Source of the DNA: a virus
Length of the DNA stretch: 64,000 bases
Virus record (IMG/VR): IMGVR_UViG_3300033182_000980
Location: 124,001-188,000 of that record
Reading direction: 5' to 3' (one strand)
Every line of letters begins with the position of its first letter. Within the stretch, counting starts at the first letter, position 1. The translations under genes were made by a program, and so were the position numbers. The notes under the pieces were generated by a model, which ran no database searches, had not been told where the DNA came from, and worked only from the letters and a program-made list of their open reading frames with translations. Shown one piece after another: positions 4,890 to 24,489 of this stretch.

Positions 4890-5284
4890 GGCTTTCCATT
4901 CTGTTCGTACCATACTTTCCTTAAGTTTATTAAAAACTCTTGGAAGTAAGGTATGAATAGATCATCAACACGCATTTGGTAATGTATCCAGTCATGCTTG
5001 GCTGTTGGGTAGCATACCATATGCGTTTTGATCTCTGTTGAAGCAGAGGTACACACCTTTACTATGGTGGCTTGAACACCATGTATTGAACACGCAAACT
5101 CTTCTGTTGGGGGTTCGTTGTTCGGTTGGGGTATGAGGTTATATGTCGGGTCATATTGTGATCCACATTCCTCGCTGATCTTTATCAGAACCTCTCTAAA
5201 AGAGGGGTTCTTCATTTGCCACCAGCGATAATAGGAATGTTCACATATTACTCGCTTGTTGTCCTCTACTGTGGTTATATCCAT
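4886..5284 (-). CDS. Hypothetical protein
   Basis: 132 residues, no recognised family. The ATG at 5284 has an AGGAAAGAG ribosome site and overlaps the end of the gene upstream on the same strand by 44 bases, indicating coupled translation. The protein contains four cysteines and a Trp-rich N-terminal helix (SYYRWWQMKNPSF). It converges with the acidic protein gene, overlapping by four bases. Confidence 0.6.
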   Translation of the reverse strand: MDITTVEDNKRVICEHSYYRWWQMKNPSFREVLIKISEECGSQYDPTYNLIPQPNNEPPTEEFACSIHGVQATIVKVCTSASTEIKTHMVCYPTAKHDWIHYQMRVDDLFIPYFQEFLINLRKVWYEQNGKP

Positions 5285-5591
5285 TCCACTCTTTCCTATA
5301 TGTGTCTATAAAGTCATTTAGGGTATCTTTCATTGAACCCTTATATGACACACGCTTGCCAAAGACACTTAGGGTGAGGTTTTCGTAGGCATTGTAGGTC
5401 GCAGAGACATGGACACCGTGTAGATCACCTTTGATGTACCAAGGGTCATCTCCCCTTAGAGGTTCAACCCCCTCGGACTCTTCCATACCTAGCTCATAAA
5501 AGAGCTGATCTGTATAGGCATATTTGAAGTGATTGCTGTCAAGCAAATCATTGTCTACCAGTGTTTTTCCATTTTTCTTCGTGGTAATCAT
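5241..5591 (-). CDS. Hypothetical protein
   Basis: 116 residues, unrecognised. A strong AAGGAGG ribosome site precedes the ATG. The central part (YIKGDLHGVHVSATYNAYEN) is beta-prone. It heads a two-gene leftward operon driven by the promoter-like motif at 5616-5633 and is divergent from purB. Confidence 0.6.
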   Translation of the reverse strand: MITTKKNGKTLVDNDLLDSNHFKYAYTDQLFYELGMEESEGVEPLRGDDPWYIKGDLHGVHVSATYNAYENLTLSVFGKRVSYKGSMKDTLNDFIDTYRKEWNGYNHSRGQQASNM

Positions 5592-5615
5592 AAATCGTTC
5601 CTCCTTATGGTTTCA

Positions 5616-5633
5616 TTATAGATAAAGGGTTAC
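5616..5633 (-). promoter_or_regulatory. GTAACCCCTTATCTATAG-type promoter motif
   Basis: On the minus strand the sequence reads GTAACCCTTTATCTATAA, a one- or two-base variant of a motif found at ten places in the window. It is 25 bases ahead of the ATG at 5591. Confidence 0.5.
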
Positions 5634-5637
5634 ACAC

Positions 5638-6912
5638 ATGATAGCTCGATATGCTTGTCCCCAGATTGAAAGTATCTTCAGCCCGATCCATCGTTTGAGG
5701 ATCTTTGTCGAAATCGAGAGACTTTTTTGTTCGAGTCAAGGATGTCCAGATTCAATCCTTGAGGATTTCTCGAAGGTAGACCTTGAACTGCTCCTTAAAG
5801 ATTTGGCTGTTAAGGAAAAAGAAACCCGACATGAGACGGTCGCTTTCATACAGGCTCTAGGGCTTCAGATGAGTAAGGAGTCCTTGCCTTATCTTCATAA
5901 GGGGGCAACCTCGTCTGACATCCTTGACACTTGTCTTGCAACACAGATGATGAACGCTTCTGATGTTGTCATTCAAAAGATTGAGTATCTTCTTGAAACG
6001 CTCAAGAAGAAGGCGATTGAATATAAAGACACTCCCATCTTAGGACGCTCTCATGGGATGTCGGGTGAGATCACGAGCTTTGGGGTTATCTTGCTTGGGT
6101 TTTATTCAGAGTGGACTCGAAACTTAGAACGCATGAAGAGAGCACAAGAAGAAATCTCTGTCGGGAAAGTATCTGGTGCTATGGGGAACTATGTTCATAT
6201 AGACCCTCAAATCGAGAAAACAATATGCAAGGCTCTAGGGCTTGATTTTGAGCCTGTTTCGACTCAAGTAATACCAAGAGATAGACACGCATACTTTATG
6301 AGCGTATTGGGCATTTTAGGGGCATCTATGGAACGCTTATCCATAGAGGTGAGAAACTTATCACAGTCTCTCATACAAGAAGTGGCAGAAGGGTTCGGTA
6401 AAGATCAAACAGGATCATCAGCTATGCCCCATAAAAGAAATCCAATCCTGTCCGAGAACCTAACTGGACTAGCTCGTATGATCCGATCTTATGTTCAGCC
6501 TAGCCTTGAGAATGTATCTCTTTGGTATGAACGAGATATGAGTCATTCATCTGTAGAGCGTATTGCCATAGAGGACTCCCTACATCTCGTTTGCTTTGGT
6601 CTAAGCAGACTTAATGGGGTTATCAAGAACCTTTATGTAGACGCAGACAGGATGGCTCATAATATAGACCAAGTTAAAGGGTCTTATTTGAGTCAGACTT
6701 GTCTCTTGTTCCTCATGGACAAGGGGTACGCTAGAGATGATGCGTATAAGGTAGTCCAAGAGATGACCCTTTATGGTCAGAAAGATCTCCTTGATGTTTT
6801 ACAAGGGGTCAAAGAGGCGGGTCATTTGACGCAAGAGGAGTTAGATCAGATCACTTCGAGAGATCGCTTTTTAGCTCGGACGAGCTTGATCTTCTCTAGG
6901 TTCGGTCTTTGA
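5638..6912 (+). CDS. purB: Adenylosuccinate lyase
   Basis: A 424-residue member of the fumarase/aspartase superfamily, of near-normal length. It shows the PurB-type motif TSSDILDT (residues 91-98), the catalytic histidine region GRSHGMSG (137-143) and the superfamily signature SSAMPHKRNP (260-269) with the catalytic serine loop. PurB cleaves adenylosuccinate to AMP and SAICAR to AICAR, two steps of purine synthesis. As a phage-borne metabolic gene it would raise adenine nucleotide supply in the infected cell. The ATG at 5638 is the first in frame; the ribosome site is weak. Its 3' end is overlapped by a possible tiny gene on the other strand. Confidence 0.93.
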   Translation: MIARYACPQIESIFSPIHRLRIFVEIERLFCSSQGCPDSILEDFSKVDLELLLKDLAVKEKETRHETVAFIQALGLQMSKESLPYLHKGATSSDILDTCLATQMMNASDVVIQKIEYLLETLKKKAIEYKDTPILGRSHGMSGEITSFGVILLGFYSEWTRNLERMKRAQEEISVGKVSGAMGNYVHIDPQIEKTICKALGLDFEPVSTQVIPRDRHAYFMSVLGILGASMERLSIEVRNLSQSLIQEVAEGFGKDQTGSSAMPHKRNPILSENLTGLARMIRSYVQPSLENVSLWYERDMSHSSVERIAIEDSLHLVCFGLSRLNGVIKNLYVDADRMAHNIDQVKGSYLSQTCLLFLMDKGYARDDAYKVVQEMTLYGQKDLLDVLQGVKEAGHLTQEELDQITSRDRFLARTSLIFSRFGL

Positions 6913-6984
6913 TCCACCCTCTTGGTCTGGCTTCTCTTCTTTTTTGGGTTTGTTCATGTGTTTGATTACTTCAAGACACCACAT
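6871..6984 (-). CDS. Possible 37-residue charged protein
   Basis: A short frame reading MWCLEVIKHMNKPKKEEKPD then a Gln/Glu/Gly-rich tail. An AGGAAA element lies 8 bases before the ATG. It overlaps the 3' end of purB on the opposite strand by 42 bases and follows the PAS gene on its own strand. Weakly supported. Confidence 0.3.
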   Translation of the reverse strand: MWCLEVIKHMNKPKKEEKPDQEGGSKTEPREDQARPS

Positions 6985-7006
6985 AAGGCATTTCCTTTCC
7001 GAAAGG

Positions 7007-7750
7007 TTATTTTCCCTTGCCCCCATTACGAGAGTCAAAGACCGAAGCCATAGCTGATCCTAATATACCTGTTAAGACCAATAAAACACGCTCAATCATA
7101 GCCAGAGAGTCTTTCGCTTCATTATTGCCTGTAATCCATGAGGTGATGATGAGCAAACCTAGCATGGTGACTAATCCCACTGTGCCATTGAACAACTGAC
7201 GCAATAGGGTGATCTGTCCAGTCAGCTTCTTCTCTTGTAGTAGGGCATACTCGGCTTTGGATTTATCTTCTTCAGCTTTCTTCTTCATCTCCTCAAGCTC
7301 AAGAAGCGTAGCCTTGTTCTCTTCAATGATCTGCTCAAGCTCGCTTTGTGTCTTTAACTCCTCTGATCTGTCTGCAAAGACAGCGACAAAGTATCTCTCC
7401 TCGCTGTTTTTTATGTCGGCCACATTCGCTTTAACAGGAACAACAGAACCATCTTTTTTGACTGCTTCGAGATTTCTCCAGTTACCCATGATGCCATGAC
7501 GCTTACCATTGGTCGCTCCCTTGTAGCTCTTAACATACCCCCTATGGTTATCCCCTATGTTAGAGGGCATAAGACTTCTAACATCTAAGCCGACCATCTC
7601 TTGATGTAGATAACCGAACATCATTGAAGCTGGTAGGTTAGCGTATCTAATAAATAGATCACCATTGCCCTCTTCTTGAGGATAATCACAAACGACAATA
7701 GCGATCTGTAAACGATCTCCCATCATCTCAAGTGTTTCGATAACTTTCAT
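7007..7750 (-). CDS. PAS-domain sensor fused to coiled coil and holin-like membrane tail
   Basis: 247 residues in three parts. Residues about 12-130 form a PAS domain of the FixL/bacterial sensor type: FGYLHQEMVGLDVRSLMPSN, then NHRGYVKSY, KKDGSVVPVKANV and YFVAVFADRSEE. His69 falls where FixL proteins carry the haem-binding histidine, although many haem-free PAS domains also have a histidine there. Residues 131-180 form a charged coiled coil. Residues 188-207 and 222-237 are two membrane helices followed by FDSRNGGKGK, like the basic tail of small phage holins. No kinase or output domain follows. A role in sensing and lysis timing is inferred; another membrane role is possible. Confidence 0.75.
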   Translation of the reverse strand: MKVIETLEMMGDRLQIAIVVCDYPQEEGNGDLFIRYANLPASMMFGYLHQEMVGLDVRSLMPSNIGDNHRGYVKSYKGATNGKRHGIMGNWRNLEAVKKDGSVVPVKANVADIKNSEERYFVAVFADRSEELKTQSELEQIIEENKATLLELEEMKKKAEEDKSKAEYALLQEKKLTGQITLLRQLFNGTVGLVTMLGLLIITSWITGNNEAKDSLAMIERVLLVLTGILGSAMASVFDSRNGGKGK

Positions 7751-7798
7751 TTGAAGCTCCCTTTGTTTTTTCTAACAAGGGGAGGCTTCATAAACGAG

Positions 7799-8443
7799 TT
7801 ATGAAAGACCTAACACCCCTTCAAGATTAGCACCCTCAAATACCACACCCTCTAAGATAGCACCCTTAAAACTCGTACCCTCTGATTGATAGTCATAATC
7901 CTCTGGACTAGAGCTAAGGTCACAGTCTTTGAAACTCGCCCCTGTAAGATCAGCATCCTCAAACTGTGCATGGGTAAGAGTTAATCCGTCAAACTTAGCA
8001 CCTCGAAGATTACACCCATCAAATAGAAGTCTAGGGTCTTGTAGATAACCATTCATACACTCGGACTCTGACTCCTCAAAGTCGTATACAATCCGAGTGT
8101 AGTCTACATCCTCAATAGTTGACCTTATGAAGTTTCCACCGTTGAACGCTGTCTGATTGAGCTTTACTCCTCTAAGATTACACCCTTCCATAATCGGCTC
8201 ATGGAACTTGGCATTATCAAAGGTTGCTCCTGTGAAGTCAGATCCTGTGAAGTCAACATCTTCTATGATGCAATCATCAAACCTAGCTCCCTTGAGGTTT
8301 AATCCTTTAAGACAGCATCCGATGAATGTTGAACCTCTTAGATCAGCACCCTCAAGGTTGGTATTTACAAAGTCTACATTTCTAAAAGTGCCTTTTCTTA
8401 AGTCAGCCCCTTTAAGATTGAGATTTTCAATCGTGTTGCTCAT
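7799..8443 (-). CDS. Pentapeptide-repeat protein
   Basis: 214 residues made almost wholly of A(D/N)LXX pentapeptide repeats (for example LKGADLRKGTFRNVDFVNTN), predicted to form a right-handed quadrilateral beta helix. A short insert near residues 112-130 (YDFEESESECMNGYLQDPRL) breaks the series. Some such proteins mimic DNA and block gyrase (Qnr/MfpA), so host gyrase modulation is possible but not shown. The gene overlaps the end of the upstream small membrane protein gene by 17 bases. Confidence 0.85.
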   Translation of the reverse strand: MSNTIENLNLKGADLRKGTFRNVDFVNTNLEGADLRGSTFIGCCLKGLNLKGARFDDCIIEDVDFTGSDFTGATFDNAKFHEPIMEGCNLRGVKLNQTAFNGGNFIRSTIEDVDYTRIVYDFEESESECMNGYLQDPRLLFDGCNLRGAKFDGLTLTHAQFEDADLTGASFKDCDLSSSPEDYDYQSEGTSFKGAILEGVVFEGANLEGVLGLS

Positions 8444-8735
8444 CTTTCCTCCAATGTGCTTTCATCTTTTCACGCACATTGGTTATATGTTTTAGTAGCT
8501 CGTCCATTTCTTTAAGTGTCTCAAATAACTCACCACGAGCCATTATGTGTAGAGGAAATACCACTAACCAAATACCTATCAAACAAGGTGCTAGGGTGAT
8601 CGGCACATAGTTCCCCTCGGAGAAAAAATAACACTCAATGAATAAGACAGCACTTAAAAAAACCCAAGCCATCTCCAACTTGAAGATGCGAGACTCGATT
8701 TCTTTTCGTTTACGGTAGAGCTGTTGTAAGGTCAT
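8427..8735 (-). CDS. Two-helix membrane protein
   Basis: 102 residues: an N-terminal charged helix, two membrane helices (MAWVFLSAVLFIECYFF and LAPCLIGIWLVVFPLHIMA), then a charged cytoplasmic helix. Overlaps its neighbours on both sides (17 bases with the pentapeptide gene, 4 bases with the gene upstream), so it is part of a tight leftward operon. A holin-like role is possible on topology alone; no family recognised. Confidence 0.6.
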   Translation of the reverse strand: MTLQQLYRKRKEIESRIFKLEMAWVFLSAVLFIECYFFSEGNYVPITLAPCLIGIWLVVFPLHIMARGELFETLKEMDELLKHITNVREKMKAHWRKDEQHD

Positions 8736-10197: not shown

Positions 10198-10215
10198 GGT
10201 GAAATATGTTTCACC
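10198..10215. terminator. Small perfect hairpin at the end of the endonuclease gene
   Basis: GGTGAAA and TTTCACC form a 7-bp stem with a TATG loop that overlaps the stop codon of the gene ending at 10211. No clear T-run follows on either strand, so termination is only a possibility. Confidence 0.3.
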
Positions 10216-11488
10216 CTAAGAACCTTCCTACCTTAACAATCACTGACTCCTCATCCGAACGAATGTCTCCCTCCCAAATCACAAGGCAATCCAGCCCCAC
10301 CTCCGCATAAGCCTCTATCGTATTACGCTCATGCTCCTCTTTACTCATTCCTGTTAACGCTTGTGAGTGCCAATACCTACCAAAACACTCGACCACCTTT
10401 GTAGCACCCCTATAAGGATGTTCGGGATCATCACTCACACAAACTACAAAGTCTGGGTTCTTAAAGCCACCAATCGAACCGTCAAAGTTCTTCTTGCTTG
10501 GAAGAAATCTCCAATATGCCCCATTACCTGTAAAGGTGAGATTGTCGCTATATGAAGCTACCCTCGACTCAAACTTGTTCATCTCTTTCTGACTCATAAG
10601 CAAGATAGGGAACTCCACACCATACCTTGCTTTTAGAGTATCTTGAACCTTACCCCAATGTCCCTCAATAGCACCTGGAAACTCAACCCCATAACGATCC
10701 ATCATCGTAGCCCTAATCTCCCCCTTGCCTTGCTCGGACGCAAAGTAGTGGCTTCCATAGTTTTCAATCATCGTCTTGAGTTGTTTCTGCCTAAACTCCT
10801 CCACAGCACTCGTGTAAGGCACACCGTATCGCTCCATGTTAGTCGCTACAACCTTCTCCATGACTTCTTCACTCATGCTAGGGATCGGCACTCCATAACG
10901 CTCTATATTCGTTGCCTCAATCTTAGCCCTTAGCTCTGCTGACCCGAATAGCGTCCCACCATACCTCTCAAGATTAGTAGCCAATGTCTTAGCCTTGACC
11001 CCATCATTCTGTTGAGGGTTGACTACACCATATTTCTCAAGGTTCGTCTGCTTGATCTTATCCTGTACGCTCTCCCAAGCAAAAGGGTTATCCTTACCCT
11101 TTAAGATTGGACGCTTACCATCAAGAGCCTCTTGCACCTTTTCAAAGACACTACTCTCCTTTGAGAAAGGGTTCTCTGCACCATAACGCTTGAGGTTAGT
11201 CTGTTTACGCTTCTCCACAGACTCTTTGCTGTGGGCAGGATTCTCAACCCCATAACGATTTAACATAGTTTGTTTGCGTCTAAACTTTGAGATCGCTTTC
11301 TTATCTCGACTTTGCCATACCCCACATCCACTCTTATGTCTTTTCATCTGTGAGTTTGAGGTAGATTCATGTCCACAGATACATGGTGTGATTGGTTCGG
11401 GTTTCCAGTTAGGCCAGCACTTTGCCATGTGGCGGCTATTGATTCGATCCCCTTTGAACTCTCTTTTACAGTGAGGGCAAGTAGCCAT
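10211..11488 (-). CDS. Free-standing homing endonuclease, Vsr/EDxHD-like, with zinc fingers and repeats
   Basis: 425 residues. Two N-terminal zinc-finger-like motifs (CPHCKREFKGDRINSRHMAKC and CICGHESTSNSQMKRH) are followed by about eight copies of a 27-30 residue repeat containing T-N-(L/M/I)-E-R-Y-G-V and a following P. The C-terminal 80 residues hold a nuclease fold with NPDFVV (Asp346), VVECFGRYWHS (Glu367, His374) and LVIWEGD, the pattern of very-short-patch-repair-like homing endonucleases. The repeats probably contact a long DNA target. It lies directly after the 3' end of the fractured structural gene, beside degenerate copies of that gene's end, as expected of an intron- or intein-associated mobile endonuclease. 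Ribosome site AAAGGA before the ATG. Confidence 0.8.
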   Translation of the reverse strand: MATCPHCKREFKGDRINSRHMAKCWPNWKPEPITPCICGHESTSNSQMKRHKSGCGVWQSRDKKAISKFRRKQTMLNRYGVENPAHSKESVEKRKQTNLKRYGAENPFSKESSVFEKVQEALDGKRPILKGKDNPFAWESVQDKIKQTNLEKYGVVNPQQNDGVKAKTLATNLERYGGTLFGSAELRAKIEATNIERYGVPIPSMSEEVMEKVVATNMERYGVPYTSAVEEFRQKQLKTMIENYGSHYFASEQGKGEIRATMMDRYGVEFPGAIEGHWGKVQDTLKARYGVEFPILLMSQKEMNKFESRVASYSDNLTFTGNGAYWRFLPSKKNFDGSIGGFKNPDFVVCVSDDPEHPYRGATKVVECFGRYWHSQALTGMSKEEHERNTIEAYAEVGLDCLVIWEGDIRSDEESVIVKVGRFLG

Positions 11489-11549
11489 AAGTAAATCCTT
11501 TCTGCTTGAGTTAGGGTTTACTTATATGAAAAGTAAGCAATCGGTCAAG

Positions 11550-11661
11550 ACTTTTTGTCCTACCCCACAGCCCACATAGGGTTCAAAATATACCCTCAAA
11601 GTACAGATACCAACACCATACTTTCGTTGCTTACCTCAATACGCCTCTGCCTACATAGGGA
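11550..11661 (-). repeat. Two degenerate copies of the 3' end of the adjacent structural gene
   Basis: Reading the minus strand after the stop at 11662, one segment translates as FDPYVGRGVLR and a second as KYGVGICTLRVYFEPYVGCG. Both resemble the true C terminus of the neighbouring product (KYGVGIRSAFGPHVGRGVL). They are not in an open frame with the gene. This looks like decayed duplications left by endonuclease-driven recombination. Confidence 0.5.
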
Positions 11662-12546
11662 TCAAAGAAAGTTTCGAGGTGCTAAAACGCCCCGACCCAC
11701 ATGGGGTCCGAAGGCGGAGCGGATACCCACACCGTACTTGGGCTGTTTTAACCCACGCATATATTTTGTAGTGCGAGCTTTTGCTTCGACAGACATCGAC
11801 CACATTTGCTCGGCAGAGGATTTGAGTCCTTCATACTTGCTTGATCTGTCGATGTTGAGTGAGATGCCACCTATCGAATAGTCAAACTCGTCCACGATCC
11901 AGTTTGCTTGTAGAGCCATAGCCGCAAACTGTATAGCACCTTGAAGGATAGGGGTTCTCCAAGCAGGTTTTTGGTTTACGAGAGCATCGAGGTTTTGGAG
12001 TTCTTCAGTTTCGGGTGGTTGCATATTCCACCAGTCTAAAGCTCGCTCTAGGTACTCTAGGAACTCCTCGTCCTCCCACACTTGACCAAAGACTCGGTTG
12101 TACGAACCGATATTCGCTTCATGCTCTGGTGGTCTGAAGTGATAATACTTGTCTGGGCAGTTGTGGACAACCACATCAGAACCTTCGAGTACAAGGTTAT
12201 GGTTCTCCTCAACAGTAAGGTCGAACATAAAGGGTCTGTTTTCGATGACCTCGATATTGGAAATCTTAGTTGTTCCTTGTGATGTCTGTAAGCTAAGTCC
12301 TACGGACAGCTCTTCTGCTGGAACACAAAGGTTAGGAGACATATAGACTCGGTGTCCACCTGTGATAGTGAGATGTTTACCTTGCTCTGTGGTGATTTTA
12401 TAAATGGGTTCAATAGGTGTAGGGTTCTTATGGGCTTTAGAGATCTGCTTCCAAGAGAAATCACCTTGAGTGTCCATAGATTTGATTGATAGCTTCCCTT
12501 TTTTGAAAGCGTCTTTAATCTTCTGTGTTTGTTCTTGAGATGTCAT
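11662..12546 (-). CDS. C-intein plus C-terminal half of a fractured structural protein
   Basis: 294 residues in two parts. Residues 1-129 (12160-12546) are the C-terminal part of a split intein: they hold the block B motif LTITGGHRVY, and end with block F (FDLTVEENHNLVLEGSDVVV) and the terminal His-Asn followed by Cys130. Residues 130-294 are the C-extein (begins CPDKYYHFRPP), a phage virion-type domain. Splicing in trans with the product of 13405-13905 would join 133 N-extein residues to 165 C-extein residues, giving a 298-residue protein. The start overlaps the nuclease gene by four bases. The extein protein itself is not recognised; it may be a neck or head-completion protein, which is inference. 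Confidence 0.88.
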   Translation of the reverse strand: MTSQEQTQKIKDAFKKGKLSIKSMDTQGDFSWKQISKAHKNPTPIEPIYKITTEQGKHLTITGGHRVYMSPNLCVPAEELSVGLSLQTSQGTTKISNIEVIENRPFMFDLTVEENHNLVLEGSDVVVHNCPDKYYHFRPPEHEANIGSYNRVFGQVWEDEEFLEYLERALDWWNMQPPETEELQNLDALVNQKPAWRTPILQGAIQFAAMALQANWIVDEFDYSIGGISLNIDRSSKYEGLKSSAEQMWSMSVEAKARTTKYMRGLKQPKYGVGIRSAFGPHVGRGVLAPRNFL

Positions 12547-13418
12547 AGTCCCAACTCCTTTTCAGTCCATGTTTGGTAAGACCAACCATTATCTTCAGCA
12601 ACTTTTTGAGACAGGGCTAACCTAGCGATAACATCTTCTCGGTTTAAAGCCCATTGTGGTTTAACTTCAACAAGAGTAGTAGATCCATCTTGATAGTGGA
12701 CAACAAAGTCGGGGAGTATTGTTCTTCCAGCAACTTTGTATATTGGCTCATAGGTATAGCTTTTGACATTAGGGTCTGACTCTAAGATGGAGATTGTCTT
12801 TGCTTCATAGCTTGAGCGAACACGAACCTCATCTTTATTGCCTTTAGGAGTAGCCTCTATTGAGGTTTTGCCTCTAAGGTAAGGTGTTGGGTTCTCTTTC
12901 ATTCTAATCGCTTGATCGTTCGATCTCCTTGCTCTTTCTTCGGGATCGTGGTGAAAGTCCATGAGCTTCTGCTTCACATCTGGATTTCCCCACACATCCT
13001 CTAAACTGTGGGCAGAAGCCTTTGCTTTGGAAATCGGATTGTCCCACCCCTTTTTAAGATTATCACGCTCATGTTGTGGTCGAACTCTCCCCCGATGGAA
13101 GTCAAAGTCTCCTTTAGCCCATTGTTTTTTTAGTTGCTCAGACCTATCCATACCTTTGGTAGATCGACCTGCATTAGCACCTAGCTTCTTGCGTTTGTCT
13201 TGAACTGCTTTACAGCCTTTCGCTTTGGTCAGCCTCTGAATAGACCCGTTGGAAAGACCTGTGATTTCGGTCATCTCTTTCCAAGAGAACCCTTGCTTAT
13301 GGAGATGTGAAACAAGAGCAGAACGCTTTTCTACAATCTCTTTAGCTACTCGACCTTTTTTGTTCAGTTGCTCTATTGTGAGGTCAAACTTAACTAGCAG
13401 TTCTTCAAGCATTTTCAT
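12543..13418 (-). CDS. Homing endonuclease of the PD-(D/E)xK type between split-intein halves
   Basis: 291 residues. Residues about 35-66 form a helix-turn-helix (LHKQGFSWKEMTEITGLSNG), residues 80-180 hold short NUMOD-like DNA-binding segments, and the C terminus is a TnsA-like PD-(D/E)xK nuclease core: RSSYE (Glu205), ILPDFVV (Asp237) and LVEVK (Glu251, Lys253). It overlaps the N-intein gene by 14 bases and the C-intein gene by 4 bases, so it replaces the endonuclease domain normally inserted in an intein. It would cut an intein-less allele and drive homing of the whole cassette. Ribosome site AGGAGA before the ATG at 13418. Confidence 0.85.
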   Translation of the reverse strand: MKMLEELLVKFDLTIEQLNKKGRVAKEIVEKRSALVSHLHKQGFSWKEMTEITGLSNGSIQRLTKAKGCKAVQDKRKKLGANAGRSTKGMDRSEQLKKQWAKGDFDFHRGRVRPQHERDNLKKGWDNPISKAKASAHSLEDVWGNPDVKQKLMDFHHDPEERARRSNDQAIRMKENPTPYLRGKTSIEATPKGNKDEVRVRSSYEAKTISILESDPNVKSYTYEPIYKVAGRTILPDFVVHYQDGSTTLVEVKPQWALNREDVIARLALSQKVAEDNGWSYQTWTEKELGL

Positions 13419-13905
13419 CTCCTATGATGTCATATAGTTCTTCGATAGGGAGTGTGATCTTTTCACCGTCAGCATCAACAGTGACGAGTTCTTCTCCAGC
13501 AAGGCACTGATCTCTAAGGAGCATACGCAACTTATAGATCATTTGTTTTTGACCCTCGGTGAGTTGTAATCCGAGTACAGCGTTCTCTGCGACTACCCCG
13601 AACTCTTGGACAACCGTTTGGGGTTGGCTGTTGACCAACTCTTTGAGCGTCCATCGTATGCGATAGCGACCATAGGTAGCTGTGGTGGGTATGCGTACAG
13701 AGGCATAGTATTCACCAACAGATGGGTTTTCTGGTATGCGAGCAGGATCACCAATGAGTACATCAGTTTCGGGTGGTCCAGGATCAACATAATAAAGTGC
13801 GTAAGTGATCTCGGCGGCGTTTGCGACATTCCCATTTGAGTTTGTGAGGAAGATGTCGAGGTCGCCACGAGAGAGGATTTGATTTCTTTTAAATGCTACA
13901 GCCAT
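13405..13905 (-). CDS. N-terminal half of a fractured structural protein plus short N-intein
   Basis: 166 residues. Residues 1-133 are the N-extein, an all-beta phage domain (NVANAAEITYALYYVDPGPP, GEYYASVRIP). At Cys134 the classic intein block A begins (CLAGEELVTV) and runs 33 residues to the stop (13408-13506). The N-intein is therefore very short, the rest of the intein fold, including block B, lying in the C-part; this is the atypical split position known from AceL-TerL- and VidaL-type inteins. Cys1 and the Asn-Cys C-terminal junction make standard class 1 trans-splicing plausible. The ATG at 13905 has an AGGAGG-type site at good spacing. Confidence 0.88.
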   Translation of the reverse strand: MAVAFKRNQILSRGDLDIFLTNSNGNVANAAEITYALYYVDPGPPETDVLIGDPARIPENPSVGEYYASVRIPTTATYGRYRIRWTLKELVNSQPQTVVQEFGVVAENAVLGLQLTEGQKQMIYKLRMLLRDQCLAGEELVTVDADGEKITLPIEELYDIIGDENA

Positions 13906-14017
13906 GATGTGAGCCTCCTTTAATAAAGGTTGGGTTATAAACGAGCTAAAAATCCTCTTAATATCTTTTATATTGTAGGGGTTTAGTAAGTTATACCAAT
14001 TACAAAGGAGATACCTT

Positions 14018-14545
14018 ATGTGTGTGATTACAGAGGGGATTACAGCTCAACTGCTTAAAGGGGGTCTAGTCCGACTCAATGACGGATCTGTTTATAGGTT
14101 AGAAGACTGCAAGCTAGAAGCAGGGGGTCGTCTTGTTCTTGCTGTGGGTATTAAAAGGGAGAAGCCTAGACCGAAGCCTAGACTAAAAATAGTGGGGGAA
14201 GTGAACCTTGAGGGAGTAGAGGTGAGTTTGGGTGATTTCTCTTTGGAGACACAAGAGATCATCTTACACCCACCTAAAGAGCCACCACCTCCATTTGAAC
14301 CTCCAGCTACTCTTATTCCTTTTAGTGTTGTGGGAGCGACTTTGCTTTATCTGCTCAAGAAGGTGTCTGGTCTTGATCGTAAGTTAAAGCATGGTTCATG
14401 TGAAGTAAGACATCAAGAAGCGATTACTCGTATTGCGAAGTTAGAGGGTAAGGTCTTGAGGAAGCAGGTTGTGGACGGGGGTAAAGCAGTTAAAGCTAAA
14501 CTTGATGAGAGGAAGGCGAATAAGGGTAATGATGGGGGAGTCTAA
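14018..14545 (+). CDS. Single-helix membrane protein with Pro-rich segment
   Basis: 175 residues, unrecognised. A beta-prone N-terminal half is followed by a Pro-rich stretch (HPPKEPPPPFEPP), one membrane helix (ATLIPFSVVGATLLYLLKKV, residues about 103-122) and a basic helical tail. Ribosome site AAAGGAG before the ATG. It precedes the CapA-CHAP gene, so a role in envelope interaction or lysis is possible but only inferred. Confidence 0.6.
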   Translation: MCVITEGITAQLLKGGLVRLNDGSVYRLEDCKLEAGGRLVLAVGIKREKPRPKPRLKIVGEVNLEGVEVSLGDFSLETQEIILHPPKEPPPPFEPPATLIPFSVVGATLLYLLKKVSGLDRKLKHGSCEVRHQEAITRIAKLEGKVLRKQVVDGGKAVKAKLDERKANKGNDGGV

Positions 14546-14601: not shown

Positions 14602-15987
14602 ATGAAAATACTTGTAGGTGGAGATGTCAGCTTTGGAAGAATCTATGAAGATGAGAGGATTTCTTATTCAGCACCTTTGTGTTTAGCTTCCATAGGCGAG
14701 TTGGAGCGAGATTATTGTATCTTTAATCTTGAGAGCCTTTTTTGCGATGACTGGAAGGCAAATAAAAGAGATGTAGATGAGAAGTGGGGTACGAGCTACA
14801 CCCATGCTAATCCAGAAGATGTGAAGCATCTCATTGAGTGTGATGTAGATCATGTTTCCTTAGCTAACAACCATACACTTGATTGGGGTGAGGCAGGGGT
14901 CGAACAGACCTGTAAAGTCCTCAACAAGTTTGGCATCTCACATTCTGGATGTGGTTCTAATGATAGGACTCACATAGATAAAGAGAAGAAAATAATAGTG
15001 TTCTCGATAGATACGGTTGAGTGCCACTACAAAAAAGAAGATCCTTTAAACTGCAAAGAGGACATCAAAGACTTCTTTAAAGAGGTTAAAGAGCTTAGAG
15101 CAAAGCACGAGGATTACCTTCTGATTTGTTGTGTTCATTGGGGTCGGTTTAGGGTGAGTCCGAACAAGGGTCAGAAATCTATGGGTCGGAAGCTCATCGA
15201 CTGTGGCATTGATGTTGTTTTAGGTAATCATTCACATAAGGTGCAATACTTCGAGATGTACAAGGGTAAGCCTCTGTTTTACTCATTAGGGAACTTGTAC
15301 TTCACTCATAGAAATCCAGAATACAATAAGCCACCAAATGTTCATTACGCTTACCTCTCAACTCTTAACTTTGAGGGGCGAGATTTTAAAGGTGTAGACC
15401 ACCATCAAACTTGGTGTGACGATAAGAAGGTGGTTCTTAAAGAGGAGAAGCCCTCTAATCTTGGATTAGAAGCGTTGAGGTTTGCTCGGAGCTATATTGG
15501 CTTTGGGGAGTCCGAGCATACGACTAATGTTGGTTGGTTTATGAAGCACATAGACGCACCCAATAAGGAGACAGCGGCGTGGTGTGCGAGGTTTGTATTT
15601 TACTGTATTAAGAAAGCCTGTGAAGAGAATGGTATTGATCCAGTCCTAGAGAAGAATGACAAGACTGGATATGCTAAAGAGCTTTATAAGCAGATTGCAG
15701 AGATCGGGTATGTCTCATTAAATCCTATGCCTGGAGACATTATCGTTTGGGACAGGAAAGAGGAAGGAAACAAGAACGGACATATCGGGATAATAGAGTA
15801 TGTAGAGGGAGATAAGATCACAGCCATTGAAGGAAACAGAGCACCAAATCCTGGTTCAAAGGTTGATCGTTTTACTTACTCTTTGAACGAGCTTTTAAAC
15901 TACAAAGAGTGGGATGACGAAGATAAGCATTTCCATCTTTTTGAAGGGTTTGCTCGCCTACCTCATCTTAAAAAGTTGGACAAGTAA
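14602..15987 (+). CDS. CapA-like metallophosphoesterase fused to a CHAP hydrolase
   Basis: 461 residues. Residues 1-275 form a CapA/PgsA-type calcineurin-like domain: GDVSFGR (7-13), SLANNHTLDWG (86-96), CCVHWGR (176-182) and GNHSHKV (208-214) supply metal ligands. Residues about 290-455 form a CHAP cysteine amidase or peptidase: TAAWCARFV with Cys328 as nucleophile and NGHIGII with His394. CHAP domains cut peptidoglycan; CapA domains act in poly-gamma-glutamate or capsule handling. The fusion suggests a lytic or envelope-processing enzyme. No signal peptide is seen. It is followed by a CapA-only paralogue overlapping by one base. Substrates are inferred. Confidence 0.82.
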   Translation: MKILVGGDVSFGRIYEDERISYSAPLCLASIGELERDYCIFNLESLFCDDWKANKRDVDEKWGTSYTHANPEDVKHLIECDVDHVSLANNHTLDWGEAGVEQTCKVLNKFGISHSGCGSNDRTHIDKEKKIIVFSIDTVECHYKKEDPLNCKEDIKDFFKEVKELRAKHEDYLLICCVHWGRFRVSPNKGQKSMGRKLIDCGIDVVLGNHSHKVQYFEMYKGKPLFYSLGNLYFTHRNPEYNKPPNVHYAYLSTLNFEGRDFKGVDHHQTWCDDKKVVLKEEKPSNLGLEALRFARSYIGFGESEHTTNVGWFMKHIDAPNKETAAWCARFVFYCIKKACEENGIDPVLEKNDKTGYAKELYKQIAEIGYVSLNPMPGDIIVWDRKEEGNKNGHIGIIEYVEGDKITAIEGNRAPNPGSKVDRFTYSLNELLNYKEWDDEDKHFHLFEGFARLPHLKKLDK

Positions 15988-16826
15988 TGAAGATACTAGT
16001 TGGAGGAGACATATCCTTTGGTCGTATTTACAAAGGAAAAGAAATCCATTATGGCACTGATGGGTGTCTAACCGAGCTTGCTTTGATCCCTAGAGATTAT
16101 TCTATTTTCAATCTTGAGAGTCCTCTCACAAGGAAACCAAGAGTGAAACTACCTAAGCCACACGCTGGTGTTTATTTGTATGGTGAGATCAGTGATGTTA
16201 GGCATCTTTTAGACTCAGATGTGGACTATCTCTCTCTAGCCAACAATCACGCTATGGACTTTGCTTCAAGTGTCGAAGATACAATCTCCACTCTTGATAA
16301 GGTTGGCATCTCACATTCGGGTACAGGCACAGACTATTTGAAGCCCCATATAGATCACGATCTTGGGTTGGCGATTTTCTCAGCCGACTTAATCGGTAAG
16401 TATGCGTATGAAGATCCTGTCTGTTGTGGCCCTTACTTTCTTGACTTGTTGGTAAAAAAAGTCATCCCTCATTATCGAAAGCTAATTCCCGATTATGCGT
16501 TCCTATGTTGCGTACATTGGGGAGCTGAATATGAAATGCCAACTGAGGAGCAAAAGAGGGTCGGTAAAAGGCTCATTGATTGTGGTGTGGATATGGTTAT
16601 CGGTCATCACCCTCATGTAATACAGCCTATGGAAGTCTATAAAGGTAAGCCTATTTTTTATTCTTTAGGCAACTTGTACTTTACTCATCACAGGAAAGAC
16701 TTAGAAGCGAGGGATGATACACATCTTGGTTGCTTATCTTTAGTTGAAATGAATGGTAGAGAGTATGTAGGGCATACCGATTACCATACATGGACGATAA
16801 GTGGAGAGAGAGTGTTTTTGTTATGA
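15987..16826 (+). CDS. CapA-like metallophosphoesterase, second copy
   Basis: 279 residues, a paralogue of the N-terminal domain of the preceding gene: GDISFGR, SLANNHAMDF, CCVHWGAE and GHHPHVIQ are at matching places, and KGKPIFYSLGNLYFTHH is almost identical in both. It ends at the CapA domain with no CHAP part. The start ATG overlaps the upstream stop (TAATG). Tandem duplication with loss or gain of the CHAP domain is the likely history. Enzyme substrate unknown. Confidence 0.82.
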   Translation: MKILVGGDISFGRIYKGKEIHYGTDGCLTELALIPRDYSIFNLESPLTRKPRVKLPKPHAGVYLYGEISDVRHLLDSDVDYLSLANNHAMDFASSVEDTISTLDKVGISHSGTGTDYLKPHIDHDLGLAIFSADLIGKYAYEDPVCCGPYFLDLLVKKVIPHYRKLIPDYAFLCCVHWGAEYEMPTEEQKRVGKRLIDCGVDMVIGHHPHVIQPMEVYKGKPIFYSLGNLYFTHHRKDLEARDDTHLGCLSLVEMNGREYVGHTDYHTWTISGERVFLL

Positions 16827-17612: not shown

Positions 17613-17786
17613 ATGAACCGACAACTTTATTGTGCCTTAGTCAGCCTAGCTTGCTTCTTCTATGCCCGATACCTCAACTCAAAGTCCTCGGAGGGAATGA
17701 GTGATGAAGAGTATCGGGATAGGCTCAATGACATCACATTCTATTCTCTGTTTGGAACGACTGCGTTGTTGTTGAGCTTCTTTTAG
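17613..17786 (+). CDS. 57-residue membrane protein
   Basis: A short frame: MNRQLYCALVSLACFFYARY forms one membrane helix, a charged loop (SSEGMSDEEYRDRLND) follows, and a second helix (FYSLFGTTALLLSFF) ends the protein. The ribosome site is weak. It converges with the next gene, overlapping by four bases. Two-helix proteins of this size are common in phages. Confidence 0.5.
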   Translation: MNRQLYCALVSLACFFYARYLNSKSSEGMSDEEYRDRLNDITFYSLFGTTALLLSFF

Positions 17787-18328
17787 CGTTTGATAGAGAT
17801 GACGAGATCACTGCCCCCTCTAGCTGTGAAGTCAATGCCCCTAGCTAACTTCTCTGCGTCAATGTAATCAACCTCATCGCCTTCATCATAGTTAGCATTT
17901 TGTTCAGCAACCCCTAAGTTATATTCATTAATCCATTCACTATTTTTAAACCCATTAATGAAGGCTGTCTGAAATCGTCCGTCCACTGCAATAAACTTTC
18001 CTGTTTTTGAACAAACAAGCCCAGCCCACCAGCGAGCACTAGGTTTAGTTGCAGGTAAAACATCTACGCCAGAAAGGACAATCTCTCCATGACGCAAAAG
18101 AAAACCTGCCCAGTTATCCCCAAGAGCACGACCAACCTTATTTGAGAGGGTCATTACTTCTTTACGCTTCATACCCTTAGCTTCTTCCCATAAGGGGAGT
18201 TTGATTCTTAGCTGACTAAGAATCTTTACAACCTCGGTGGACTTGATGTGGTTTTCAGACGCTTGTCTTTCGAGCCGAGCGACTCTCATTTCAAGGCTTC
18301 TGATTACTTCACTTGCTGATTTTCTCAT
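17783..18328 (-). CDS. Protein with shared N-terminal SASE module, family member 1
   Basis: 181 residues from the ATG at 18328, which has an ATGGAGAA ribosome site; the frame extends upstream without one. The first 24 residues (RKSASEVIRSLEMRVARLER after the Met) match the N-terminal module found in five other proteins here. The rest is unrelated to those: residues 35-180 are mixed alpha/beta with no recognised family. Its leader carries the same TAGTTT motif and GTGATCTCTTTAACC segment as the genes at 21303 and 21958. Confidence 0.7.
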   Translation of the reverse strand: MRKSASEVIRSLEMRVARLERQASENHIKSTEVVKILSQLRIKLPLWEEAKGMKRKEVMTLSNKVGRALGDNWAGFLLRHGEIVLSGVDVLPATKPSARWWAGLVCSKTGKFIAVDGRFQTAFINGFKNSEWINEYNLGVAEQNANYDEGDEVDYIDAEKLARGIDFTARGGSDLVISIKR

Positions 18329-18378
18329 GGTTTTTTCTCCATTCAAGGTTAAGGTTAAAGAGATCACCAATGAGAAGA

Positions 18379-18391
18379 TATAAACAAACTA
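18379..18391 (-). promoter_or_regulatory. TAGTTT-type promoter motif
   Basis: On the minus strand TAGTTTGTTTATA overlaps the thyX stop codon and lies 50 bases before the ATG at 18328. Confidence 0.5.
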
Positions 18392-19135
18392 TTGGTCTAG
18401 GGGTGGGATCTTCCCATGCTTGACGAAGTTAGCGTGGGCGAGAGGCCATAGCTTTTGGATTTGCCGAGAAATCTCTCTAGCGAGTAGTTTGATCTCCCAT
18501 TGAGCGTCAGCGTGATCTCGTTTAGCAATAAAGCTATTAACCCAGTTGTGGAGAGAACCTGTCGCCCAATAAGTTGTGTATAGGTTCTGTGGAAGAACCA
18601 TACGAGCTTGATCTCTTGCGACCCCTTTTTCGACTAACTGATTATAGAGTCGGATAGATTCAGTCGCATGGTTCTTGATAGCAGAGACAGCATCTAGCTT
18701 GAGGAACTTAGGGAAGTCATTGGGGTCGAACTCAACTACAGGGTTGAAGGTTTCGTCAAGGCTGGCTTGCCTGTTCTTAGTGTCTTGCTTACGCATCTCA
18801 CTTGGGAAGTAAAACTCGATGTCCGAGCTTGTGTATCGCCTAGAAATCTCGTTGTAAGAAAATGTTCTGTGTCTCATCTGTTGTCGTGCAACGAAGAGGG
18901 GGGCTTTGATCCAAAACGATACGACATTATGTTCTGTGGTTGAGGTGTGCCCTTCTTTGATGAGGAAGTTGCAGAGTCGTTCCTCACGCTCACCCATCTC
19001 TGTGCTGACTTGCCCTAGACTCGCCCTAGCACTGTTGACGATTGTGAGGTCATCGCCCATAGCTTGAATGAGGGCTACTCCTCCGATACCGTCATCATAA
19101 ATACTGACCATCTCAGATCTAAAGTCATTCGTCAT
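18389..19135 (-). CDS. thyX: Flavin-dependent thymidylate synthase
   Basis: 248 residues, normal length for ThyX. The signature RHRTFSYNEISRRY (residues 88-101) is the RHRxxSxNExSRRY motif that binds FAD and dUMP. The enzyme converts dUMP to dTMP with methylene-tetrahydrofolate, NADPH and FAD. It works with the UMP-forming enzymes encoded nearby to secure thymidine for phage DNA. ATG at 19135 follows an AAGGA element weakly spaced. The stop codon is overlapped by a promoter-like motif serving the next gene. Confidence 0.96.
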   Translation of the reverse strand: MTNDFRSEMVSIYDDGIGGVALIQAMGDDLTIVNSARASLGQVSTEMGEREERLCNFLIKEGHTSTTEHNVVSFWIKAPLFVARQQMRHRTFSYNEISRRYTSSDIEFYFPSEMRKQDTKNRQASLDETFNPVVEFDPNDFPKFLKLDAVSAIKNHATESIRLYNQLVEKGVARDQARMVLPQNLYTTYWATGSLHNWVNSFIAKRDHADAQWEIKLLAREISRQIQKLWPLAHANFVKHGKIPPLDQ

Positions 19136-20360: not shown

Positions 20361-21242
20361 ATGCTTCATCTCTTAGACCCCTTTACAGCTCATAAAATAG
20401 CTATTTCTTTACTAAAAAGATCTTTTCCGTATCCGAAAATCCATGACCCACATAATGTATTTGGGTTAGATTTCCCTAATCGGTTAGGTCTTAGTGCTGG
20501 CTTCGATAAAGACGCGGTTGCTTTGAGGGGCTTAAAGTCTTTCGGCTTCGGTCATGTGGAGGTAGGTACAGTCACTCTTGCTATGCAGAGAGGGCACACC
20601 CCTCAGTATATAGAGAGGCAACCAAACGCACTTATCAATAAGCTCGGACTCCCTAATGTCGGGGTGAACCAGATGGTTCAAAACATCAAAAAATGCCGAC
20701 CTAAAGGATTAGTCCTTGGAGGCTCTATCGCTTATGGCGATATGGGAAATCCTGGATATTGTCTCACCGAGATTTATGAGACATTCTCCCGACTGCGTAA
20801 GAGTGTAGATTACATCGTCCTAAATGGGTCTTGTCCGAATGTAGAGACACCAGAGAACATATATAAATGCTTAAACCTCATAGACCATACTGACACCCCT
20901 GTTCTTGTTAAGCTCCACATCATGGAGGACAAGATGAAGTTGATTCACACTTTAAATGTTCTCAAGGAGAGCGGGGTTAAGGGAGTGATCTGTAGCAATA
21001 CGCTCCCCACAGTAAAAGGGGGGTTGTCGGGCAAGCCTCTAACACATATCGGGCATCAGCAGTTAGAATGGGTGAAAGAGAACAGCGACTACCCTGTGAT
21101 TTCTAGTGGAGGTGTGATGACCCCTCAAGATGCTGTTGATCGTATTCGTCTTGGGGCTGATCTCGTACAGGTATATACAGGCTTCGTTTACGGAGGGATA
21201 ACCTTCCCTTATCGAGTGGCTAAGGCGATGAGGGGTTTGTAG
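20361..21242 (+). CDS. pyrD: Dihydroorotate dehydrogenase, class 2-like
   Basis: 293 residues. It oxidises dihydroorotate to orotate, the fourth step of UMP synthesis. Class 2 (quinone-linked) features: LDPFTAHKIAISLL at the N terminus, FGLDFPNRLGLSAGFDKD (34-51), HVEVGTVT and ALINKLGLPN. It is about 40 residues shorter than typical class 2 enzymes. At the catalytic loop it reads NGSCPNV (155-161), with Cys158 where class 2 has Ser; Cys is the class 1 residue. C-terminal phosphate-binding ISSGGV and ADLVQVYTG are intact. Membrane quinone use is inferred. Its stop overlaps the promoter motif of the next gene. Confidence 0.92.
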   Translation: MLHLLDPFTAHKIAISLLKRSFPYPKIHDPHNVFGLDFPNRLGLSAGFDKDAVALRGLKSFGFGHVEVGTVTLAMQRGHTPQYIERQPNALINKLGLPNVGVNQMVQNIKKCRPKGLVLGGSIAYGDMGNPGYCLTEIYETFSRLRKSVDYIVLNGSCPNVETPENIYKCLNLIDHTDTPVLVKLHIMEDKMKLIHTLNVLKESGVKGVICSNTLPTVKGGLSGKPLTHIGHQQLEWVKENSDYPVISSGGVMTPQDAVDRIRLGADLVQVYTGFVYGGITFPYRVAKAMRGL

Positions 21243-21302: not shown

Positions 21303-21884
21303 ATGAGAAGATCAGCCAGTGAGATTATTAACGGCCTTGAAATGAGAATCGCTCGCCTTGAGCGTCAAATGCGTGTGGCGGCTAACTACAACCCAAATGA
21401 CACCTTTGAGATCGTAAAGGGGAAGGGTTTTATTCGTATCTATGTTGGCGGTAAGTATAACGACAAACGCACAATTTTGGATCTCAAAGAGACTTTCAAA
21501 GAGGTCTTTGCCAAGGAGTTCATGGACAGTAATGGTCTACCACCAGATTTTACAGTCGAAAGATGTGTTGAGGATGCCTTTGACAGCTCTAACTTGATTG
21601 AAGATTTGAACCGAGTTGCTCCAGGGAGAGGTGAAAGAGCTATCAATTTTAATCTTTACAACACAGATAAGTTTCTTAAAAATGTTGTGGGAGAGCTTGA
21701 GGATAGCCGAGGTGAATTCGATAATCCAGATCACGGTAATCCGGAATGGGAAGATTATTTTCTTGAATGGTCTGATGAATATGAAGCAGACACTGCTGTT
21801 AAGAAAGCTGTAAAAGCACTTATGGATAAGTATGGGAAAGTCAATCCAAACAGGATCGACCCTCGCACTTATCGCCTGTCCTAA
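21303..21884 (+). CDS. Protein with shared N-terminal SASE module, family member 2
   Basis: 193 residues. The N terminus (RRSASEIINGLEMRIARLER after Met) is the shared module. The remainder begins with a beta-rich part (FEIVKGKGFIRIYVGGKY) and continues with acidic helices; no family recognised. A TGGAGAATGACCT ribosome site precedes the ATG. Leader and module are both near-copies of those of the next gene, yet the rest of the proteins differ. Confidence 0.7.
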   Translation: MRRSASEIINGLEMRIARLERQMRVAANYNPNDTFEIVKGKGFIRIYVGGKYNDKRTILDLKETFKEVFAKEFMDSNGLPPDFTVERCVEDAFDSSNLIEDLNRVAPGRGERAINFNLYNTDKFLKNVVGELEDSRGEFDNPDHGNPEWEDYFLEWSDEYEADTAVKKAVKALMDKYGKVNPNRIDPRTYRLS

Positions 21885-21957: not shown

Positions 21958-22773
21958 ATGAGAAGATCAGCAAGTGAGGTCATCAGCGACCTTGAAATGA
22001 GAATCGCTCGCCTTGAGAAATCAGCGGCTCGCCATGAGCTACCTAAAAAAGTGTTGGCAGAGCTTGAAGATCTGCTTAGTGAAGATCCCTTCTATGAGAA
22101 TGACATGGAGGATTATTGGTTTACTATTAAGGTAAACAAAGCTAAAGAGATTGGCTACAGGGAAGAAATGAGTTCATACTCGGAAAACTTTCATGTATAC
22201 GAGTATGAGGTCGAAGCTACAGTCACTCTCAATGACTTGATCGTTGATGACGCTACGATTGAGGATCCTCGTTCAAGGCTATACCACTTTGTTTATGAGG
22301 CACTTGAACAGGCTGACTTTTCTGGTGTGCGAGTGTTGAAAGACGCTGGTTTTGATGTCAAAAAGGTTGGGACTCCCAAACTTACCACTAGAAGTGGTTA
22401 TCCTTCTAAGCTAGAAGTTCCTGTTAAAATCGTTTGTGTTGCGGACGGTAGGTCTGATTTTTTTCTAGTTAATAGAAGGGCAAACAGCCGTCTTGCTTCT
22501 ACTCGTAAGGTTGCTGGACACATAGTTCTCGCAGGTACTGTAAATGTTCGTCAGCTTAGACGAGATCTTGAGGACACCTTCGGCATTGAGGACATCGAGA
22601 TTGAAGATGGTGTTCTTACTTTCCTCATGTCAACAATGGATAACAAGCAGGTGGAGAAGCAAGTTAAATCACTTGCTAAGAAGCATGATGTGAAGTTTGA
22701 AAAGGGTGAGTTCACCGATGGTCTTGGAATGATCTACACCAAGAACGCTTCACGCAGAAATCGTATGCGTTAA
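21958..22773 (+). CDS. Protein with shared N-terminal SASE module, family member 3
   Basis: 271 residues. N-terminal module RRSASEVISDLEMRIARLEK after Met, then an acidic alpha/beta region (ELEDLLSEDPFYENDMEDYW), a beta domain around residues 60-170, and a C-terminal basic stretch (NASRRNRMR). No recognised family. The ribosome site is ATGGAGAA. Converges with the secreted protein gene, overlapping by four bases. Confidence 0.7.
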   Translation: MRRSASEVISDLEMRIARLEKSAARHELPKKVLAELEDLLSEDPFYENDMEDYWFTIKVNKAKEIGYREEMSSYSENFHVYEYEVEATVTLNDLIVDDATIEDPRSRLYHFVYEALEQADFSGVRVLKDAGFDVKKVGTPKLTTRSGYPSKLEVPVKIVCVADGRSDFFLVNRRANSRLASTRKVAGHIVLAGTVNVRQLRRDLEDTFGIEDIEIEDGVLTFLMSTMDNKQVEKQVKSLAKKHDVKFEKGEFTDGLGMIYTKNASRRNRMR

Positions 22774-23756: not shown

Positions 23757-23796
23757 CTACCTTGTAGTGTCTTACTTATATGAATGGAGAACTGTA

Positions 23797-24489
23797 ATGA
23801 GAAGATCAGCATCAGAAGTCATTAGCGACCTTGAAGCTCGTGTAGCTCGCCTTGAAAAGCAGGCTAAAAAGGTAACGATTGCAAGCGAAGAAAAGCTAGT
23901 TGAGCGATATATTAAATCAACAAGGGGTGTTCTTGATGTTTCTGTCGATTTATCGAAGCGAGACAGGATAACAATGGATATAGACTTTCATGGAACAGTT
24001 TTCCATTTCGAGGGGGAGTGCGATCAAGACATGGAAAGGATCTATGGAGGGTCTAAGACTGCAAATCCTGGAGCTTTGGGTGCATTTTTTATGATGAATG
24101 CCTTAAGACCACGAAGGAGAGGTCGTGGTCGAAGTCGTCATGTTGGAAACACATACACATTCAGACACCCTCATCCTTTTCCTCGCTCAAGGTGGGATTC
24201 TCCAACTATTTATGTCTTTACTCAGTTTGGTGATCTCTATGGTGGTGGTGGCACTAAAGATATTTATGAAACGCTTAAGGATTTGCATAATAACACAATG
24301 AAGAAAAAGCAAATGGATGAGGAGCAAAGGCAAAGAGACGAAGAACTTCGTATCGAGCGTAAAAGGAGTGAGGAGGCTCAAGCTCATGGGGAAAGGATCA
24401 GATTAGAGCGTGAAGAGAGGAAGCGTAAGAAAAGGGAGATGTATGAGGCGAACCGAGCTAGGAATGAAGAAAGACGAAGAAATAGGTGA
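23797..24489 (+). CDS. Protein with shared N-terminal SASE module, family member 4
   Basis: 230 residues from the ATG at 23797, supported by ATGGAGAACTGTA and by the module (RRSASEVISDLEARVARLEK). The middle region has a Gly/Met-rich hydrophobic segment (GALGAFFMMNALRP) and a basic part (RRRGRGRSRH). The C-terminal 60 residues are a highly charged helix (RQRDEELRIERKRSEEAQAH) ending KREMYEANRARNEERRRNR. Suggests nucleic acid or capsid interaction. No family recognised. Confidence 0.7.
   Translation: MRRSASEVISDLEARVARLEKQAKKVTIASEEKLVERYIKSTRGVLDVSVDLSKRDRITMDIDFHGTVFHFEGECDQDMERIYGGSKTANPGALGAFFMMNALRPRRRGRGRSRHVGNTYTFRHPHPFPRSRWDSPTIYVFTQFGDLYGGGGTKDIYETLKDLHNNTMKKKQMDEEQRQRDEELRIERKRSEEAQAHGERIRLEREERKRKKREMYEANRARNEERRRNR

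Follow-up and report, generated by a model that had tools for sequence, protein, structure and literature searches.

Fractured genes were reportedly described by Dassa et al. in 2009; their exteins are said to be enzymes of DNA synthesis and repair, and the accompanying nucleases to be Vsr-like in about half of the cases. Here we describe a gene of this kind in a 64,000-nucleotide stretch of viral DNA (the window; bases 124001-188000 of the 375,691-bp virus record IMGVR_UViG_3300033182_000980), in which a conserved phage gene appears to be broken by an atypically split intein with a short N-terminal part. Known atypically split inteins have N-parts of 25 amino acids (aa) in AceL-TerL, 37 aa in GOS-TerL and 15 aa in PolB16 OarG (PMC11766414, PMC10189870). 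Ligation of three segments by means of two split inteins has been published as an engineered scheme, and a report on the Jug phage describes nrdD in four fragments (PMC12363816).

The fractured gene is laid out as three closely packed open reading frames (ORFs; Table 1). An initial annotation of the window had placed intein block A at Cys134 of the first gene, and residue 134 of ORF N is indeed Cys; recomputation also returned its sizes for the N-intein (33 aa), the C-intein (129 aa) and the joined extein (133 + 165 = 298 aa). ORF C begins within the intein and carries the His-Asn-Cys end, as had been claimed, but it is not strictly the next product, because a 291-aa ORF (12543-13418) separates the two halves. 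This ORF encodes a TnsA-like nuclease, which the initial annotation had overlooked along with the homing signature and the relatives with several sites and several states. The end of ORF N runs into the nuclease ORF, whose stop codon in turn overlaps the start of ORF C in the sequence ATGA. A Shine-Dalgarno-like sequence, AAAGGAGG, is located at 13914-13921, 5' of ORF N, and another precedes ORF C. Since an AGGAG abuts the first ATG, translation of the nuclease likely starts at the in-frame Met3 (13412), which fits better than Met1.

Both parts of the intein are recognized by profiles. ORF C scores above the cut-offs of Pfam Intein_splicing (PF14890; 38.5 bits, cut-off 35.8) and NCBIfam intein_Cterm (TIGR01443; 28 bits, cut-off 15.6). 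On ORF C alone, NCBIfam intein_Nterm (TIGR01445) covers positions 15-82 of 83 with 24.3 bits; on the joined intein, it covers positions 1-82 with 41.7 bits, the N-part contributing positions 1-14. When the 33-mer was reversed before joining, the score was 25.0 bits. The 33-aa N-part completes the coverage of this profile, which places the split within the N-terminal splicing region, between blocks A and B. This agrees with the short-N class assigned in the initial annotation, and an N-part of 33 aa falls within the published range of 15-37 aa (PMC11766414, PMC10189870). A profile built from six C-inteins matched solved inteins, best 2jmz with an expectation value (E) of 3.7e-11, followed by RadA, DnaX and others. 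The features are those of class 1: Cys1 is present in the window and in all site-134 relatives read; the block B Thr-x-x-His motif, TGGH in ORF C, is invariant in the C-intein alignment (A6), and one relative (L156) has TWGH; and the intein of the window ends in His-Asn followed by Cys+1. Searches of bacterial and archaeal genomes yielded no relatives of the C-intein. Terminase-like and SbcC-like phage genes (loci L054, L055 and L056; L numbers denote related loci) contain further likely short-N split inteins, those in terminase-like genes having Vsr-like nuclease ORFs close by. The TerL split inteins (L054, L055) were matched at only 27-32% identity.

The joined extein aligns without gaps, from residue 1 to 298, with intact proteins of viral contigs, the closer ones being 72-99% identical. 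Among the matches listed, intact 298-aa homologues occur in dozens of contigs, and in the closest intact allele, L006, the cassette is simply absent. The refuting condition named in the initial annotation, that the joined exteins have no matching homologue, thus does not hold. Together with the intein profile scores, these intact homologues rule out chance ORFs. Site 134 is Asn in every empty allele matched in the survey, and Cys or Ser in the carriers; the codon is AAT in L006 and TGC in the window. The +1 nucleophile thus comes with the cassette, and splicing would yield a protein that is not identical to the empty allele at residue 134.

On the basis of sequence profiles and a structure model, we tentatively class the extein as a probable head-tail connector or related virion protein. 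The head-tail connector family phrog_17327 weakly matched three of the six extein members (best E 8.5e-4), a homologue in phage Tunturi_5 is annotated as a head-tail connector, and the fold of the extein model matched phage proteins including Bacillus phage G gp165; a search against PDB gave no match at E up to 0.001. These data lend moderate support to the "virion-type" label of the initial annotation. In the model (mean predicted local distance difference test score, pLDDT, 74), residues 1-110 form a beta-rich part, and two intein sites found in this gene, 134 and 225, are each positioned where a long helix ends (117-133 and 198-223).

Evidence for mobility came from comparison of the window with L042. 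The exteins of this pair show synonymous saturation, with a proportion of synonymous differences (pS) of 0.75 in the N-extein and 0.89 in the first 90 codons of the C-extein, and DNA identity in flanking extein windows is about 65-83%. Within the cassette, DNA identity is 98.0% in the N-intein, 94.4% in the nuclease and 97.4% in the C-intein, and synonymous divergence (dS) is 0.045, 0.128 and 0.088, respectively. The step in identity falls within a few codons of the N-junction and within about 10 codons of the C-junction. By these measures, the cassette has been transferred horizontally and its limits coincide with the splice junctions, which is a signature of homing. On an extein tree of 65 rows, occupancy of site 134 (10 rows, against 55 empty ones) takes 10 changes, as expected from recurrent horizontal gain and loss.

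Both intein halves are under purifying selection, as judged by the ratio of nonsynonymous to synonymous divergence (dN/dS) between the window and L044, which is 0.098 in the N-intein (33 codons only) and 0.080 in the C-intein. This selection is seen although L044 has lost its nuclease, and therefore it appears to act on splicing and not on mobility alone. For the extein, dN/dS between the window and intact L006 is about 0.02.

The relatives show several states of the same gene. Besides the window, site 134 is split around a nuclease in L035 (a second contig with proteins identical to those of the window), L042/L043, L052, L053, L069 (LR745208.1, a published 485-kb phage record), L155, L156 and L157. 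The divergent split pairs (L044, L052, L053, L069 and L155-L157) retain Cys1, the block B T-x-G-H motif and the final Asn followed by Cys or Ser. In L044, the nuclease has shrunk to a 33-codon ORF, in which its first codons are joined to its last few and the overlap with ORF C is kept. L040 has instead a single 450-aa ORF with a contiguous 154-aa mini-intein at site 134. A second intein, with Ser1 and Ser or Thr at +1, is located at site 225, where it is split around a Vsr/DUF559-like nuclease in L031/L045, L033/L034, L044 and L157. The site-225 intein of L042/L043 is contiguous and reads IIKEE-R-MMDN, consistent with an origin of this mini-intein by loss of the nuclease gene through deletion and fusion of the two halves. 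A third site, near extein residue 285, holds a contiguous intein with Ser1 and Ser+1 in L053. In an intein tree, the site-134 and site-225 inteins form separate groups; the contiguous L042 copy lies among split site-225 inteins, and the placement of L040 is not firm. The survey scans each covered at most 80 loci, and locus counts are not frequency estimates; L042/L043, L033/L034, L031/L045 and LR745208.1/L154 are near-copy contigs and not independent.

Taken jointly, these observations make it fairly likely that this gene is a hot spot fractured independently by two short-N split inteins, with a TnsA-like nuclease at site 134 and a Vsr-like one at site 225, and that splitting is reversible, as at site 225 of L042. 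With both sites occupied by split inteins, L044 and L157 encode the protein as three polypeptides, which two trans-splicings would have to join; if so, these loci would be a natural counterpart of the engineered three-segment ligation. In a literature search that covered few subscription papers, we found no report of a gene with two natural split inteins. Several candidates were discarded in this survey. Apparent inserts in L125-L129 and L144, suggested by long tblastn spans, proved to be uninterrupted copies of about 294-303 aa, the span having begun upstream of the ORF. An 8-residue overlap (218-225) in tblastn at the second site, which might have been a duplication, is a chance alignment of intein end residues. 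Mixed alignments for a whole-precursor model (A8, A9) put the C-inteins in the wrong place and were set aside.

The nuclease of the cassette matches Pfam PF08722 (TnsA-like N; E 6.6e-9) and NCBIfam TnsA_like (E 7.4e-10; 38.7 bits, below the whole-protein cut-off of 110 bits), and in a Foldseek search with a model of medium confidence (pLDDT 69.7) the top solved fold was TnsA, 1t0f (E 1.5e-3, probability 1.00). Five homologues, including three with about 40% identity to the window protein, all keep the catalytic residues E205, D237 and E251-x-K253; the L042/L043 nuclease is 93% identical to the window protein. The enzyme is TnsA-like and not Vsr-like (EDxHD). It has the PD-(D/E)XK nuclease fold in common with TnsA of Tn7; unlike TnsA, it is a stand-alone gene with an N-terminal helix-turn-helix (HTH) within an intein cassette, and no transposase partner was seen among its neighbouring ORFs. 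The case suggests a homing role for TnsA-type nucleases. Within incomplete literature coverage, we found no report of a split-intein gene that contains a TnsA-like nuclease.

These data are best explained by fracture of a phage gene through an atypically split intein of the short-N class, to which we assign a probability of about 0.92; the anatomy of the locus, its intact homologues, purifying selection on the intein halves and horizontal transfer of the cassette are shown by the comparisons above. The cassette occupies codon 134 of a conserved, connector-like virion gene of jumbo phages. The two halves would be translated separately from the closely packed, overlapping genes, the intein parts would associate, and Cys1 and Cys+1 would carry out class 1 trans-splicing, restoring a 298-residue protein in which Cys replaces the Asn134 found in empty alleles. 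Cleavage of such alleles by the nuclease is predicted and would let the cassette spread in co-infections. We infer association of the halves, splicing, and nuclease cleavage and its target from sequence. Some points speak against this explanation. The restored protein has Cys134 where all sampled empty alleles have Asn. The site-134 C-inteins of L155, L156 and L157 end in Ser-Asn and not His-Asn, a natural variant of the penultimate His, and therefore not every member need splice at full efficiency. Finally, the virion role of the extein is suggested by weak profile matches and an uncertain model.

An improbable alternative is that the gene functions in pieces, its two products cooperating non-covalently and the intein remnants persisting as passengers or docking domains. 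A precedent is a ribonucleotide reductase split by a nuclease that remains functional as two peptides (cited in PMC10448857), and splicing of the window pair is predicted only. However, Cys1, T-x-G-H, the final Asn and Cys/Ser+1 are conserved across relatives whose C-inteins share 32-50% identity, and both intein halves have a dN/dS of about 0.08-0.10. Docking alone needs neither Cys1 nor a +1 nucleophile, yet the carriers swap Asn134 for Cys or Ser. It is still less probable that the insertion inactivated the gene and the pieces are drifting pseudogenes. Collapse of the L044 nuclease to its remnant would fit such decay, but L044 retains its intein halves after nuclease loss, the gene is otherwise conserved, and in the window both halves are open and under purifying selection, with the low extein dN/dS given above.

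Removal of the interval by a self-splicing RNA intron, with the intein-like peptides incidental, is very improbable. Group I introns are frequent in huge phages (PMC12363816), but an Rfam search of 11400-14200 gave no match at E up to 1, the intein motifs directly adjoin the extein at its exact boundary on either side, and the mini-intein of L040 at site 134 is contiguous and fully translated. Just as improbable is an assembly artefact or chimera. The window is a single virus record of IMG/VR-type data; the same arrangement is nevertheless present in L035 with identical proteins, in L042/L043 with a 93%-identical nuclease, and in LR745208.1.

Table 1. Coordinates of the fractured gene, its cassette and other intein- or nuclease-related features (window positions unless another contig is named)
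Feature	Position	Strand	Length	Description
ORF N	13405-13905	-	166 aa	N-extein, N-intein, then stop
N-extein	13507-13905	-	133 aa	
N-intein	13408-13506	-	33 aa	CLAGEELVTVDADGEKITLPIEELYDIIGDENA; C-terminal end of ORF N; Cys1 codon 13504-13506
Nuclease ORF	12543-13418	-	291 aa	HTH and TnsA-like PD-(D/E)XK; free-standing putative homing endonuclease
ORF C	11662-12546	-	294 aa	C-intein, C-extein, then stop
C-intein	12160-12546	-	129 aa	Block B TGGH, block F, VVVHN end
C-extein	11665-12159	-	165 aa	Starts with Cys+1
Mobile cassette	12160-13506	-	1,347 bp	N-intein, nuclease and C-intein; at extein codon 134
DUF7487 homing endonuclease	10211-11488	-		Pfam PF24308, E 1.6e-36; phrog_3339 homing endonuclease
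Contiguous-intein locus L003	G000 contig, 5,070-8,462			
Contiguous-intein locus L004	G000 contig, 85,781-88,960			

Directly downstream of the fractured gene lies a DUF7487 homing endonuclease gene, which was considered and rejected as the nuclease of the cassette. It also adjoins many intein-free alleles and forms its own block of high identity between the window and L042, and so it moves independently of the cassette. Elsewhere in the same phage (contig G000), contiguous inteins also occur, two of them terminase-like in their host gene and others in ribonucleotide-reductase-like genes. Six otherwise different proteins of the window (17783-18370, 21303-21884, 21958-22773, 23767-24489, 38831-39253 and 61067-61540) share a near-identical N-terminal peptide of about 23 aa, MRRSASEVISDLEARVARLEKQA, which occurs at 29 places in the 375,691-bp record at E < 1e-3 (31 matches listed) and could be a capsid-targeting or protease-processed signal. 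The window further encodes nucleotide biosynthesis genes (5638-6912, 18389-19135, 20361-21242 and 25977-27158), namely adenylosuccinate lyase, ThyX, dihydroorotate dehydrogenase and a fusion of orotidine monophosphate decarboxylase with a phosphoribosyltransferase; a tandem pair of capsule-synthesis-like (PGA_cap) genes (14602-15987 and 15987-16826), with a CHAP domain in the first; and a 1,619-aa ORF (41391-46250) whose C-terminus is phage tail sheath-like, below the cut-off.

The locus resembles fractured genes of the Dassa type in that a split intein interrupts a conserved phage gene and a separate gene for a nuclease lies between the closely packed halves, and the cassette is less diverged than its exteins (window versus L042), a sign of homing. 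It differs in having a connector-like extein and a TnsA-like nuclease; the Vsr-like type is found only at site 225 of relatives. With AceL-TerL, GOS-TerL and PolB16 OarG it shares the split between blocks A and B, with a short N-part and a long C-part (33 + 129 aa here), in a different extein gene and with low sequence similarity; the solved VidaL intein is a marginal match only (E 0.25). The AceL NrdHF split intein (PMC7891396) likewise breaks a gene, probably of a phage, with a nuclease gene between the halves, but it is a class 3 intein with a typical split (98 + 48 aa) and a GIY-YIG nuclease. Genes of the huge Jug phage are also in pieces through nuclease genes, introns and putative inteins, whereas many of its breaks are explained by RNA splicing, and the accessible part of that report describes no defined split-intein pair in one virion gene (PMC12363816).

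Overall, the kind of system, a fractured gene with a short-N split intein, is already known; new are the connector-like extein, the TnsA-type nuclease and the range of states that a single gene displays (empty, split around a nuclease, split around a 33-codon nuclease remnant, contiguous mini-intein, and double-split). The short-N family (N-parts of 30-37 aa) and the Ser1 pair of site 225 could serve as ligation tools. In contrast to the known atypically split inteins named above, contiguous and split alleles of one site stand side by side here. The origin and re-fusion of split inteins have been hard to study because these states usually occur in unrelated genes. Here, a single gene presents all of them, including in close relatives (the window, L042, L044 and L006), so that the order of events becomes testable.
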